Below, piece by piece: positions 16,013-51,812 of a DNA stretch of 64,000 bases. How positions within the stretch are numbered: position 1 is the stretch's first letter; every line of letters begins with the position of its first letter. The notes under the pieces are model-generated. The model searched no databases, was not told where the DNA came from, and saw nothing but the letters and a program-made list of their open reading frames with translations. The DNA is from an uncultured Methanomicrobiales archaeon. GTDB lineage: Archaea > Halobacteriota > Methanomicrobia > Methanomicrobiales > Methanospirillaceae. A program made the position numbers and the translations under genes. The DNA is taken from NCBI GenBank assembly GCA_903926075.1, contig CAIYHQ010000070.1, forward strand, positions 1 to 64,000, in the 5' to 3' direction.

Positions 16013-16816
16013 ATGACTAAAAGAATGGCAAAGATATGGTTTATCCTTGTTATTTTCCTGTTTGCATGTCTATTATTGCCGGCAGGAGCTTTGGGCGCAC
16101 GAACAATGCCGAGCAATGGCGACCCAATCCAGATTAGAACTGATGTACAGGCATATGGCTCAGAAGGATTCCGTCAGTATACAAGTCTTGAGTATACACA
16201 GAGTACAGTCAATGTCTCGGACAGCCCGCCTCTGAATCCCGGCGAACTTATTGGTACAATGGGAATTGAGGAGCAGGGCCTTGCGCAGGGTGGACAGACT
16301 AATTATAACGGAGCTCTCCAGCTTGACACATCAAGTAAGGACCTTGGGAACAATCTGGACGCAACAAGGAGAGTAACTTTCAATGGGACACAGGGTGAAG
16401 CAGGCAGAATGATCTATGCGCAGACTGTAGGCCTTGATGTAATAGGCAACTCTTCGAATCTGCAACAATCAAATCTCTGTCCTCTTGGCTCTACAGAACA
16501 GGCATCACAGGGTGGCTCATATGCTGAGCGTGTATCAGCAGGATCAGACTTTGATGTTTCACAGATGGACCTGACAACTTCAAGCGGAGTAAGGACCATA
16601 TCAGACAATGGAGCACCTGTAAGTCTTACTAACGGTGTTAATGCATATGGATTAAATGGGCCCGATTCCAAGGCAGTTGGATTAGGTGAATCATCAGTAC
16701 ACGTCAATAGTATGCAGGGTAATGGGACAACCCAGACCACTCAACTCAACTATGATGATATCACCGAAGTTGATGGACTGTTTGAACTTGCAAAGAAAGT
16801 ATCTTACAACTCCTAA
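16013..16816 (+). CDS. Secreted protein of unknown function, 267 aa
   Basis: A clear signal peptide (residues 1-29, ...LLPAGALGA) precedes a 240-residue polar domain rich in Gly, Ser, Thr, Asn and Gln. There is only one cysteine in the mature part and no membrane anchor. It looks like a mostly beta secreted protein with loose repeats around 'VNAYG...' and 'VQAYGSEG...'. I do not recognise a family. It has its own TATA-like box and strong ribosome site and converges on the M6 peptidase gene. Confidence 0.75.
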   Translation: MTKRMAKIWFILVIFLFACLLLPAGALGARTMPSNGDPIQIRTDVQAYGSEGFRQYTSLEYTQSTVNVSDSPPLNPGELIGTMGIEEQGLAQGGQTNYNGALQLDTSSKDLGNNLDATRRVTFNGTQGEAGRMIYAQTVGLDVIGNSSNLQQSNLCPLGSTEQASQGGSYAERVSAGSDFDVSQMDLTTSSGVRTISDNGAPVSLTNGVNAYGLNGPDSKAVGLGESSVHVNSMQGNGTTQTTQLNYDDITEVDGLFELAKKVSYNS

Positions 16817-20416: not shown

Positions 20417-22066
20417 ATGATGGAAAGCCGGGAGCTCTATTGTTCATATGGTGCTTGGTATCAAAACAGAATTATAAGAGCTTTGATCAGGCTTATTCCC
20501 TCTATTCATGAGGCAAAAGACCCGGAAGGGGTTCATAAGATGCGGGTTGCGACCCGGCGTCTAAGGGCCGCCCTCCCCCTCTTCCGTTCGTGTATGCGAA
20601 AAAAGGATTATAAGAGATGGATCTCCGAGATAAAAAGAGTAACTACTGCACTCGGAAGGGCCAGGGACCTTGATGTCCAGATTGAATTTCTGACAGATTT
20701 TAGGGATTCAATGTTAGAAAATCATGATATACCTGATTTCGGAACAGGAATTAATGCCCTAATCACTTCTCTATCAGAGGAGAGATCAATGATCCAGCCT
20801 ATTCTTGATTCGGCTGTTGAACGTATTGTAAAAAAAGAGGTTATACAGGAGATAAAATCATACTTGCGTCGGTACAGCGGCTTATGGTCGACATGTTCAG
20901 CAAATGACGCAGTGAGGGAAGTTATTGATAAAGGTTCACAATTCATCTTCGAAACAGTTGATATCCTGAAAAAAAAGAGTGATGCAATATATGACCCTCT
21001 TGATATATCAGGACATCACCAGATGAGGATAGCTGCAAAAAAACTTAGATATACGCTTGAAGCGTTCCAGGTAATCCTCCCTCTTCAAGTTAAGGAGATA
21101 GAAAAAGGAGTAAAAAAACTTCAGGATCTCCTTGGAGAAGTCCATGACTGCGATGTATGGATTAATGACCTGCCGGTGTTCATAACAGATCAGGTTGATC
21201 AATACTGGAAAGAGGCAGGAGAGTGGGAAAAAATAAAAAGGGATATTAATTATCTTATTGCAAATCGAAAAGAGAAGCGCCAGGAGCTTTATACTGGAGC
21301 CAGAAATCTCTGGAGTTCTTTTCTCTGTCAGCAGATTGATGAAAGGCTGCCCAACCTGATTGCAGACATGTTCAATGAGACTTCTGATGCGTGTGTGAGG
21401 GATCTTTATCAGGAAAAGAGTACACCTGTTACTGTAGCGCTAATAAGTGACATACATGCAAACCTGAAAGCGTTAAACAGGGTAATGGCTGATATTAAGG
21501 CAAACAGAGCTGATTTTATTCTTAATGCCGGTGATGCCGCGGGTTTTGGTGAAGATCCCGAATCTGTTATTAAGATACTAGAAAAAGGGAATGTAATTGG
21601 TGTCAGAGGTAATTCAGATGACAAAATACTATCAGTTAAGGAACATAGTGATAATCCGGTAGATACACCTGATGCAGATGTGAGGGGCCCTTACTGGACC
21701 TGCAGGGTGTTAAAGAAGCCGCAATTTCAATATTTACAGAGTCTTCCCCAATTACTTATTCTTAATGCAGGGATGTTTACAATACTGCTTACTCATAAAA
21801 TTGATAAAAATAACATGCAGAACTATCTGGCCTCTTTACCCGAAAAGATGGGTCCTGTCTCAAGAGATATTTATAAAGCTCCGGATATTATCGTTTCAGG
21901 ACATACACATATCCAGAAGAAGTTGCAAATAGATTCTCTTACCCTTATTAACCCAGGCAGTGTTGGTAATAGTAAAGACGGTCTCGCATATTATGCACTG
22001 CTTTATCTAACTGATGAAGGGTTTACTGTCGAGATGAAAACAGTGGATTATACAGATTCGGTGTAG
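20417..22066 (+). CDS. CHAD domain fused to calcineurin-like phosphoesterase
   Basis: 549 residues. Residues 1-310 are a CHAD domain: helices with conserved basic residues, EGVHKMRVATRRLRAALPLF and HHQMRIAAKKLRYTLEAFQ, which bind polyphosphate in studied members. Residues 333-545 are a YfcE/MJ0936-type metallophosphoesterase: VALISDIHAN, LNAGDAAGFG, RGNSDDK, LLTHKI, VSGHTHIQKK and INPGSVG, with every metal ligand in place. The two domains usually sit in separate proteins. The natural reading is a phosphodiesterase brought to polyphosphate or a polyphosphate-rich body; the substrate is not known. The gene stands alone between divergent and convergent neighbours. Confidence 0.88.
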   Translation: MMESRELYCSYGAWYQNRIIRALIRLIPSIHEAKDPEGVHKMRVATRRLRAALPLFRSCMRKKDYKRWISEIKRVTTALGRARDLDVQIEFLTDFRDSMLENHDIPDFGTGINALITSLSEERSMIQPILDSAVERIVKKEVIQEIKSYLRRYSGLWSTCSANDAVREVIDKGSQFIFETVDILKKKSDAIYDPLDISGHHQMRIAAKKLRYTLEAFQVILPLQVKEIEKGVKKLQDLLGEVHDCDVWINDLPVFITDQVDQYWKEAGEWEKIKRDINYLIANRKEKRQELYTGARNLWSSFLCQQIDERLPNLIADMFNETSDACVRDLYQEKSTPVTVALISDIHANLKALNRVMADIKANRADFILNAGDAAGFGEDPESVIKILEKGNVIGVRGNSDDKILSVKEHSDNPVDTPDADVRGPYWTCRVLKKPQFQYLQSLPQLLILNAGMFTILLTHKIDKNNMQNYLASLPEKMGPVSRDIYKAPDIIVSGHTHIQKKLQIDSLTLINPGSVGNSKDGLAYYALLYLTDEGFTVEMKTVDYTDSV

Positions 22067-22121: not shown

Positions 22122-22601
22122 CTACTTATGGTATGGGTGATTCGCAATATATGAAAATCCCCTGTAGAGTTGTTCAAGAAGGATAAGCCTTGCAAGGGGA
22201 TGGGGGAATGTCAGGGTTGAGAGCGAGATCCTGCTGTCTGCACCACTAAGAATCCTGCCCGAAAGTCCGAACGGTCCTCCAATAAGGAATACAACTTTGC
22301 TCTCACCTTTCAGGCTTAATCTCGATATCTCATCTGAAAAACCTAAGCTTGAATGAAGTGTTCCGTCTCTGTCAAGAGCTATCGTGTATGAACCTGGCGG
22401 GACCTCTTTACTTAACCTTACACCCTCTTTATCACAAATTCGGGCCAACTCATCAGGAGAAGGCTCTTTTTGCAAGGTTTCTGCCTGGACCTCTATTATG
22501 GCCATATCAGTATATCGTTTCAGCCAGAGCTGGTATTGAGAGATGCCCTGATATATCCAGTCCTCTTTTATCTTTCCGACTGCGATAATAAAAAGTTTCA
22601 T
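22122..22601 (-). CDS. rlmH: 23S rRNA (pseudouridine1915-N3)-methyltransferase RlmH
   Basis: 159 residues, the normal family length. SPOUT-fold features: KLFIIAVGKIKEDW at the start, LIGGPFGLSG for S-adenosylmethionine binding, and the invariant C-terminal end ANHPYHK. Methylates the ribosome at helix 69 after assembly. It follows the DedA gene by 26 bases on the same strand, so the two are likely co-transcribed. Confidence 0.93.
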   Translation of the reverse strand: MKLFIIAVGKIKEDWIYQGISQYQLWLKRYTDMAIIEVQAETLQKEPSPDELARICDKEGVRLSKEVPPGSYTIALDRDGTLHSSLGFSDEISRLSLKGESKVVFLIGGPFGLSGRILSGADSRISLSTLTFPHPLARLILLEQLYRGFSYIANHPYHK

Positions 22602-22627: not shown

Positions 22628-23290
22628 TTATTCTGCACTCTTATCTCTCTTCTCCAGGAAAAGGATCTGGACTAAACGGTGAATGATCATGGCAACTGCG
22701 AATAGGGAGAGACCTAGTACGAGCCACATGATAATCCCGAAGTTATCTTTGACTACAGGTATTGAGCCGATATAATAACCTCCTAGCACAAAAACGAGAG
22801 ACCACAGGATACCTCCGATTATACTGTACGCAAGGAAAGTCCGGTAACGCATATCTCCAACTCCCGCAAGAAATGGAGCGAATGTCCTTATATAAGGGAT
22901 AAATCTAGCAATAATAATAGTGAGCCAGCCATATTTCTTAAAATATTCTCCAGTATAATTAAGCCATTCACGCTTGATGAAACGCGGATAACGCTCAACT
23001 ACTTTATCGCTGCCGAAAAGAGACCCTATAAAGTAGTTCAGTGTGTCCCCTGCAATTGATGCAACTGAAAAGATTATAACGAGAAGACGTACATCCAGAA
23101 CTCCGCTTGCGGCAAGTGCCCCTGAAACAAATAGAAGAGAGTCACCAGGAAGGAAAGGAGTCACCACAAATCCGGTCTCAATAAAAATTATTGAGAAAAG
23201 AATGAGATAAATAAGGGGCCCGAATTCTAATGTGAATATTGTAAGATTTTGATCTAAATGGAGGAATAGGTTCAGAAAGTTTAAAATCAT
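22628..23290 (-). CDS. DedA-family membrane protein
   Basis: 220 residues with five or six membrane helices. Family signatures: FIETGFVVTPFLPGDSLLF near residue 40, GDTLNYFIGSLFG, and ARFIPYIRTFAPFLAGVGDM with the conserved basic/Pro residues. DedA proteins help move phospholipid head groups or maintain the proton gradient; the archaeal role is undetermined. Upstream of rlmH in a probable two-gene unit. Confidence 0.92.
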   Translation of the reverse strand: MILNFLNLFLHLDQNLTIFTLEFGPLIYLILFSIIFIETGFVVTPFLPGDSLLFVSGALAASGVLDVRLLVIIFSVASIAGDTLNYFIGSLFGSDKVVERYPRFIKREWLNYTGEYFKKYGWLTIIIARFIPYIRTFAPFLAGVGDMRYRTFLAYSIIGGILWSLVFVLGGYYIGSIPVVKDNFGIIMWLVLGLSLFAVAMIIHRLVQILFLEKRDKSAE

Positions 23291-50470: not shown

Positions 50471-50522
50471 CTGACCTTTGCGGTTTGGTTCAATACCATC
50501 GCAGAAACGAGGAAGATATTCT

Positions 50523-51812
50523 ATGAAAACATTATACGCTATTGGAATTCTTGTCATTTTTATTTTTGTATCGCTGCCTGTAACTGCTGATTACCCGGTT
50601 CCTATGCAGGCTACGGCAAATGGAATCATACCCTCTGTTATTAATCAACCAAATAATGAAGCATTTAGCTGTCCGGTAATCCAGATTCCACAAGGCAGCT
50701 ATCCTGTTGGGTTCAGAGTCGATGATTGGATAGATGGATCAGGAAAACAGACAATTGGTCCTGGAATGTCCAAGATTGTGGATAATAATGGAGTTCTGGT
50801 AGGCACTATTACTTATACTGATATGTATTCGTTAGATAATGGTGATAATGGTCCCTGGGCATTTGACTGGGCAACTACTGAAGGAACATATACTGGCAAG
50901 GTTACAGTTAAAGCAGGAAATGTAGACCTACTTATCTACGATTACAGTGGGTCAAATGCAAATAGTGCTGGTGATGCAAAACTCTATGCACCTCAAAACG
51001 GACCCGGAAAATGGGCTAAAATCAGCCACTTTGATTTCTGTGGATACTTCACTCCAAAACCGACATGTTCAACAGCCCATATTTCGATAGTAAAATTTTA
51101 TGATGCCAACGCTAACGGAATCAATGATGATGGGAAGAACATTGATGGCTGGAAGGTTAGCATCAATGGTAACGATGCATTTACTCCAGTAGATAAGGAG
51201 ACAGGATTCGGAAAGTACACTGTTAAGGAATATGATCCAAACCAGACATCTTGGATGAGTACAACCTCAAAAAGTGTTGACGTGAACCTTGCAACATGCG
51301 GTGAACAGAAAAAAGTAGAATTCGGAAACCTTTGTATTGGGCCTGGTGGCGGATTAACCCTTGGATTCTGGTCAAACCCGAACGGAGCAAAACTTGTTGG
51401 CTCTGATGATCTTGCCATGTTAAAGGCATTGAACCTGAAAAATGCCAATGGGAATGATTTTGATCCATCTGACTATACCTCGATGAGAAACTGGATACTA
51501 AAAGCACAGGCATCAAATATGGCATATATGCTCTCTGCTCAGCTCACTACCATGGAGCTGAATGTTTTCAATGGCAAAGTCGATAAAAACGCAATTATCT
51601 ATGCACCAGGAACAAAGAGTGCAAATTCCCTTGGATTCGCGTCTATCACTTCAATTATGGCAGAAGCAGATTCGGCTTTGGCTGTAAACGGATTGACACT
51701 TGCTGGAAGTCCAAACAGAAATATCCAGGAAACTCTGAAAAACGCTTTGGATAATGCTAATAATAATATAAACTTTGTTCAGTCAGTCCCTTGTGCATTC
51801 AGTTTTGCATAA
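50523..51812 (+). CDS. Secreted protein with SdrD-B-like domain
   Basis: 429 residues from ATG 50523. Signal peptide 1-22 (MKTLYAIGILVIFIFVSLPV...). The first 170 residues form a beta-rich domain of unknown type. About 185-260 is a Cna-B/SdrD-like domain with the calcium-type KFYDANANGINDDGKNIDGW motif. A region with GGGLTLGFWSNPNGAKLVGS and a helical C-terminus follows. The LTLGFWSN motif recurs in exported proteins of varied microbes. No membrane anchor. Probably an extracellular or S-layer-associated protein. Confidence 0.8.
   Translation: MKTLYAIGILVIFIFVSLPVTADYPVPMQATANGIIPSVINQPNNEAFSCPVIQIPQGSYPVGFRVDDWIDGSGKQTIGPGMSKIVDNNGVLVGTITYTDMYSLDNGDNGPWAFDWATTEGTYTGKVTVKAGNVDLLIYDYSGSNANSAGDAKLYAPQNGPGKWAKISHFDFCGYFTPKPTCSTAHISIVKFYDANANGINDDGKNIDGWKVSINGNDAFTPVDKETGFGKYTVKEYDPNQTSWMSTTSKSVDVNLATCGEQKKVEFGNLCIGPGGGLTLGFWSNPNGAKLVGSDDLAMLKALNLKNANGNDFDPSDYTSMRNWILKAQASNMAYMLSAQLTTMELNVFNGKVDKNAIIYAPGTKSANSLGFASITSIMAEADSALAVNGLTLAGSPNRNIQETLKNALDNANNNINFVQSVPCAFSFA

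Follow-up and report, generated by a model that had tools for sequence, protein, structure and literature searches.

A CHAD–metallophosphoesterase fusion in a Methanomicrobiales genome: a candidate polyphosphate-turnover enzyme and its relatives beside ppk1

Domains and fold of the fusion protein

The window is the whole stretch of DNA that was analysed, 64 kb from an uncultured Methanomicrobiales archaeon. It carries one uninterrupted ORF in which a CHAD domain is followed by a calcineurin-like metallophosphoesterase (MPE) domain (Table 1), which confirms the fusion described in the initial annotation. Both Pfam cut-offs are far exceeded. CHAD (PF05235) spans residues 21-249 (E 2.3e-42, 145.9 bits against a cut-off of 25.6) and Metallophos_2 (PF12850) spans residues 340-532 (E 3.2e-22, 79.6 bits against 27). 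The same type of search gave no match to a CYTH/TTM domain in the window protein.

Table 1. Parts of the CHAD–MPE gene, in window coordinates.
Feature	Coordinates	Strand	Basis or remark
CHAD–metallophosphoesterase fusion ORF	20417..22066	+	549 aa, ATG to TAG, no internal stop
CHAD half, residues 1–322	20417..21382	+	Pfam, family alignment and paralog comparison
Interdomain joint, residues 323–334	21383..21418	+	pLDDT below 50; CHAD-only paralog ends here
Calcineurin-like metallophosphoesterase (MPE) half, residues 335–549	21419..22063	+	Pfam, alignment, Foldseek, ligands

An AlphaFold2 model of the protein, built from a 30-sequence alignment, has two well-folded domains (mean pLDDT 85.5). Confident helices occupy residues 1–321 and an alpha/beta fold residues 338–544; the joint between them (323–334) is disordered, and the loop at 464-487 is modelled weakly. 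The C-terminal extension typical of most relatives is absent from the MPE half. In Foldseek searches, the CHAD half matched the CtCHAD–polyphosphate complex of Chlorobium (6qva, TMt 0.70). The top matches of the MPE half were SapH 3qfn and 3qfm (E about 1e-8), followed by 3rqz and other MPEs. SapH/Spr1479 (3qfm, 3qfn, 3qfo) and 3rqz are thus the nearest solved structures; unlike the window protein, they stand alone without a CHAD domain, and 3rqz is uncharacterised.

As for the YfcE-like label first given to the MPE half, it is borderline: the cut-off of the NCBIfam YfcE-type model (TIGR00040) is barely exceeded (59.7 against 56.25), and that of the E. coli yfcE equivalog (PRK09453) is clearly missed (52.4 against 117). 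YfcE-type phosphodiesterases (1su1; MJ0936, 1s3l) share the superfamily and the seven-ligand di-metal site with the window MPE, but in the fold search they lie farther from it than SapH.

In terms of functional residues, mutants of CtCHAD and SsCHAD have assigned polyphosphate (polyP) binding to H253, R256, R260, R296 and R418/Y419 (CtCHAD numbering), where mutation reduces binding (PMC6537752). By motif and alignment, all six are kept in the window protein, as H40, R43, R47, R83, R211 and Y212. Across an alignment of 30 CHAD-MPE proteins, H40, R43, R47 and R83 never vary, and R211 and Y212 reach at least 90% conservation. The seven metal ligands of the MPE half are likewise intact (D345, H347, D373, N399, H460, H496 and H498). 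The motifs quoted earlier for this protein are all there (DIHAN 345-349, GD 372-373, GNSDD 398-402 and GHTHI 495-499), together with the ligand His460, which had not been quoted.

Genomic context of the gene and its relatives

The window genome has one PPK1 (contig C15), two PPX (C22 and C111) and PPK2 genes, and a gene for a small HD protein adjoins ppk1 on C15. Matches to one search reference, ppk2_L100, were disregarded, as this sequence is probably no PPK2. No ppk1, ppx or HD gene adjoins the CHAD-MPE gene, and none lies in the 64-kb window. The order on C15 is nth–kinase–rSAM–PPK1–HD–ruvC–ruvA–ruvB, with six bases separating PPK1 and HD (L217:5785-8556), and this PPK1–HD–ruv locus contains no CHAD gene. 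A locus from the same family (L062) has the identical order but with CHAD-MPE inserted, as PPK1-CHAD-MPE-HD-ruvC-ruvA-ruvB, and at eight further loci of the family a CHAD gene lies between PPK1 and ruvC. By synteny, the CHAD(-MPE) slot of the relatives is empty at the genome's own ppk1 locus, so the window gene looks relocated. We infer from these gene orders that it moved out of the ppk1-HD operon and did not take the place of a lost copy. It may be either the original itself in a new position or a second copy that outlived the original.

A CHAD-only paralog of 322 aa is found on C22; it is 76% identical to the window gene in nucleotides, and the match coincides exactly with the CHAD codons. 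The paralog stops at the domain joint, and no MPE remnant was found downstream of it. With dN/dS about 0.09–0.10 for the CHAD copies (dS about 1.5, near saturation), both appear to be under purifying selection. A stop between the domains in related strains had been named beforehand as a result that would speak against the fusion. Such breaks do occur, in this paralog and in the split relatives described below, but together these indicate modular fusion and fission, and the artefact reading is dismissed.

Around the gene, window positions 22122-22601 encode an RlmH-like SPOUT methyltransferase, here in a methanogen, which falls short of the NCBIfam equivalog cut-off (155.9 against 172). A DedA/VTT membrane protein is encoded at 22628-23290, two genes from the CHAD-MPE gene. 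At four loci of relatives (L035, L037, L041 and L044) a DedA-like gene is directly upstream of CHAD-MPE, and the proximity in the window is possibly remnant synteny. Two other window ORFs, at 16013-16816 (267 aa) and 50478-51812 (444 aa), have no Pfam match; the first, whose start resembles that of secreted proteins, has a high content of Ser, Gly, Asn and Gln. A scan for RNA families at 15–30 kb of the window returned nothing.

We swept 199 genomes of the order to which the window genome belongs and found relatives in 101. PPK1 is present in all genomes that match the window protein strongly. PPK1 is missing from 83 of the 199 genomes, and only one of these gave a match, a marginal one. For about 60 of the matches, gene context was inspected in up to 16 kb of surrounding sequence, and the CHAD-MPE fusion was present at 34 other loci in 33 genomes. 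All 34 adjoin ppk1, ppx or the small HD gene, with ppk1 at 26 of them. At most of these loci HD and/or ppx follow immediately downstream, often overlapping. The suggestion that polyP genes should be sought next to this gene therefore came out negative at the window locus and positive at every other fused locus inspected in the order, as well as in further archaeal and bacterial phyla.

The small HD protein matches Ppx/GppA domain III in Pfam. In Methanoregula-type genomes the same slot is taken by CHAD fused to this Ppx-GppA domain III-like HD in place of the MPE, so the CHAD partners there are phosphohydrolase-type domains. The Methanospirillum locus L123 reads CHAD-MPE–HD–ppx. Compared with the window protein, Methanospirillum-type forms have an extra CHAD insertion and a C-terminal extension, with HD and ppx adjacent. 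Some variation in copy number and splitting was also seen. A tandem PPK1 pair lies upstream of CHAD-MPE at L038, L042, L046 and L050 (Methanocalculus and others). In the same phylum (L230 and L231, f10), the gene after ppk1 encodes 525 aa, with CHAD towards the C-terminus and additional sequence in front of it, and MPE-HD is a separate protein, which is another grade of module splitting.

The cassette in other phyla and the kinship of the MPE half

An alignment-based scan of about 85,000 species genomes extended the search beyond the order; the best 80 matches were followed by ORF analysis, with Pfam on chosen cases. Among these 80, a triple fusion CHAD-MPE-HD lies between ppk1 and ppx in Bathyarchaeota, Methanomassiliicoccales, a metagenome-assembled genome labelled Nitrososphaerota, and Synergistales; CHAD–MPE pairs were found in Anaerolineae and Poribacteria. 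Methanolliviera carries ppk1 and the triple fusion on a contig. Less fused orders are ppk1–CHAD–MPE-HD–ppx in Synergistaceae (L158), CHAD–MPE-HD–ppx–ppk1 in Phycisphaerales (L129) and CHAD–MPE–ppx–ppk1 in Pirellulales (L140). In Chloroflexi (L174) and Thermoanaerobaculia (L177), an MPE gene is directly 3' of ppk1, without CHAD.

A ppk1–CHAD–MPE–HD–ppx cassette, with genes separate or variously fused, thus occurs in other archaea and in Synergistota, Chloroflexota, Planctomycetota and Acidobacteriota. The pairing had been put forward as an archaeal one, which does not hold, given the triple fusion in Synergistales and the split forms with the same order in those four bacterial phyla. Most relatives outside the order come from metagenome-assembled genomes, so their taxon labels may err, while gene order stays internal to contigs. 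Neighbouring genes of some lineages that appear as a single fused gene in others are a classical sign that their products work together, and the modules of this cassette are such a case.

Two arrangements among these matches stand somewhat apart. In Bathyarchaeota (L109:2009-10388) two triple-fusion copies lie close together; the second has lost most MPE metal ligands (DNDDDKV), as if one copy had decayed catalytically after a duplication. In Anaerolineae (L181:7971-11378) a ppk1–MPE pair faces an 857-aa CYTH–HTH–HD–CHAD protein, where TTM, HD and CHAD modules share one polypeptide.

As for the kinship of the window MPE, a first quick tree placed it among operon forms, and a constrained tree with the window among unlinked MPEs scored higher. 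In a more careful tree, to which further stand-alone archaeal MPEs were added, the window sequence is back with the Methanomicrobiales fusions (support 82/93), and stand-alone MPEs without polyP neighbours split from the ppk-linked ones (100/99). Grouping the window MPE with unlinked MPEs is not rejected by the AU test (p 0.475), and with about 2 changes per site the window branch is long. The 32 sequences of 94 that resemble the window MPE most are all ppk-linked, and its profile scores are 168.2 bits for the ppk-linked against 145.4 for the unlinked set. Because of the long branch and the AU result, descent from the ppk1–CHAD–MPE–HD–ppx cassette is called favoured only.

The same data bear on a different origin, namely that the window gene is a stray remnant, or arose separately when a duplicated CHAD gene joined an unrelated housekeeping MPE, and that its product has no polyP catalysis. 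The orphan location, the CHAD-only paralog, the long MPE branch with its missing C-terminal extension and the AU result would all suit this account. We nevertheless think it very unlikely, since profile and similarity scores favour ppk-linked MPEs, all metal ligands are intact, the CHAD is under purifying selection, the domain order is that of the operon form and the slot at the ppk1 locus is empty.

Proposed role in polyphosphate turnover

From its relatives' usual seat beside genes that make and break polyP, the window protein is probably a polyP-cutting enzyme. We put even confidence, for and against, in the following fuller reading: a two-module polyP-turnover enzyme in which CHAD grips polyP and the MPE cuts phosphoanhydride bonds, encoded by a cassette member that left the ppk1-HD operon. 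The grip of the CHAD module would follow from its conserved, mutationally validated residues. CHAD would deliver polyP to the di-metal calcineurin-like MPE, or keep the MPE on polyP. The MPE would then hydrolyse phosphoanhydride bonds, whether of polyP or of short polyP ends, leaving products on which HD and PPX could act. The initial annotation had likewise tied the phosphoesterase to polyP. The gene neighbours of relatives speak for this tie and the window locus itself, with no ppk or ppx neighbour, does not, so the polyP reading rests more on the relatives. The nuclease activity offered there as an option lacks specific support and was set aside.

Precedent for substrate recruitment comes from YgiF, where CHAD stimulates the tripolyphosphatase activity of the fused enzyme (PMC6537752). 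E. coli YgiF belongs, with the Ralstonia CHAD proteins, to the CYTH(TTM)–CHAD type (PMC6537752, PMC10892726), which likewise joins CHAD to a metal-dependent phosphohydrolase that CHAD stimulates. In these, the CYTH/TTM domain is N-terminal, whereas in the window protein the hydrolase is a calcineurin-like MPE placed C-terminal to CHAD.

Going one step further, the cassette MPE in general could be a widespread prokaryotic endopolyphosphatase, a proposal we hold only tentatively. CHAD would thread or anchor the chain, the MPE would cut it internally, and HD and PPX would trim the pieces, which would make a modular polyP-degrading assembly shared by archaea and bacteria. PolyP breakdown in prokaryotes is usually ascribed to PPX and to PPK running in reverse, and such an assembly, if real, would go beyond a PPX-only picture. 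The fold is capable of this chemistry, as yeast Ppn1 and Ppn2 are endopolyphosphatases in which a calcineurin-like phosphoesterase cleaves polyP. Unlike the window protein, they are vacuolar and have no CHAD.

The structural neighbours of the MPE half can be read in two ways. The PDB entry calls SapH an asymmetric Ap4A hydrolase and phosphodiesterase, hence an enzyme that acts on phosphoanhydride bonds. The likeness to SapH indicates that this branch of MPEs can attack phosphoanhydrides, but it equally supports an Ap4A-type substrate. The MPE could then be a hydrolase of dinucleoside or nucleoside polyphosphates of the Ap4A type, working at polyP sites and coupling polyP to alarmone turnover, with CHAD giving location or sensing and not substrate supply. 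The structural matches also include a putative diadenosine tetraphosphatase (2qjc), and ppk-linked MPEs score weakly on the symmetrical Ap4A hydrolase model. These scores stay below the cut-off (best 32.4 against the equivalog threshold of 176), AP5A competed inefficiently with polyP for a CHAD domain in a published assay (PMC6537752), and gene order ties the MPE to ppk1 and ppx. We consider this reading unlikely.

In terms of novelty, CHAD–CYTH fusions, the two domains of the window protein in databases and CHAD next to ppk or ppx (PMC6537752, PMC10892726) were already known. CHAD with an MPE has been named in passing: Methanospirillum hungatei Mhun_2988, detected by proteomics, is listed as a metallophosphoesterase with a CHAD domain, its function unassigned there (PMC9275234). 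By that description its architecture is like that of the window protein. The pairing, thought beforehand to be undescribed, is therefore so in function and not in architecture. Our literature search, with subscription papers mostly outside reach, found no function for CHAD–MPE fusions, no activity reported for any member of the family, and no description of an MPE in ppk operons or of the fusion series of MPE with HD. A conserved MPE in archaeal and bacterial ppk operons, repeatedly fused to CHAD and to a Ppx-domain-III-like HD, points to a polyP activity that is still unassigned.

Lastly, the metal ligands vary among relatives. All seven are present in 64 of the 77 MPE sequences compared, the window's included; the remaining ones lack one to seven ligands or have one unreadable position (L120). 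Losses were seen in Methanoculleus L048/L124, L033/L111, L047, L062, L063 and the second Bathyarchaeal copy in L109, and at least eight distinct relatives have ligands partly or fully gone. In the 30-sequence alignment, L033, L047, L048, L062 and L063 combine a ligand-losing MPE with intact invariant CHAD residues. PolyP binding thus appears to be the constant part, and catalysis dispensable in some lineages.

That catalysis is not essential in every lineage counts against our best explanation, and it leaves room for a scaffold role or for a substrate of the Ap4A type. As a scaffold, the MPE fold would be mainly a protein-interaction module, the role it has as Vps29 in retromer. The protein would then organise PPK1, HD and PPX at granules, as a phosin, and catalysis would be of minor importance or gone altogether. 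Foldseek also returned Vps29 structures, fusion to other cassette enzymes suggests a complex, and the relatives that lose ligands while conserving CHAD residues speak for the scaffold too. We judge this role improbable, since seven ligands held in so many sequences, the window's among them, are hard to explain without catalysis. For the polyP-cutting reading, the ligand-less family members are natural controls.
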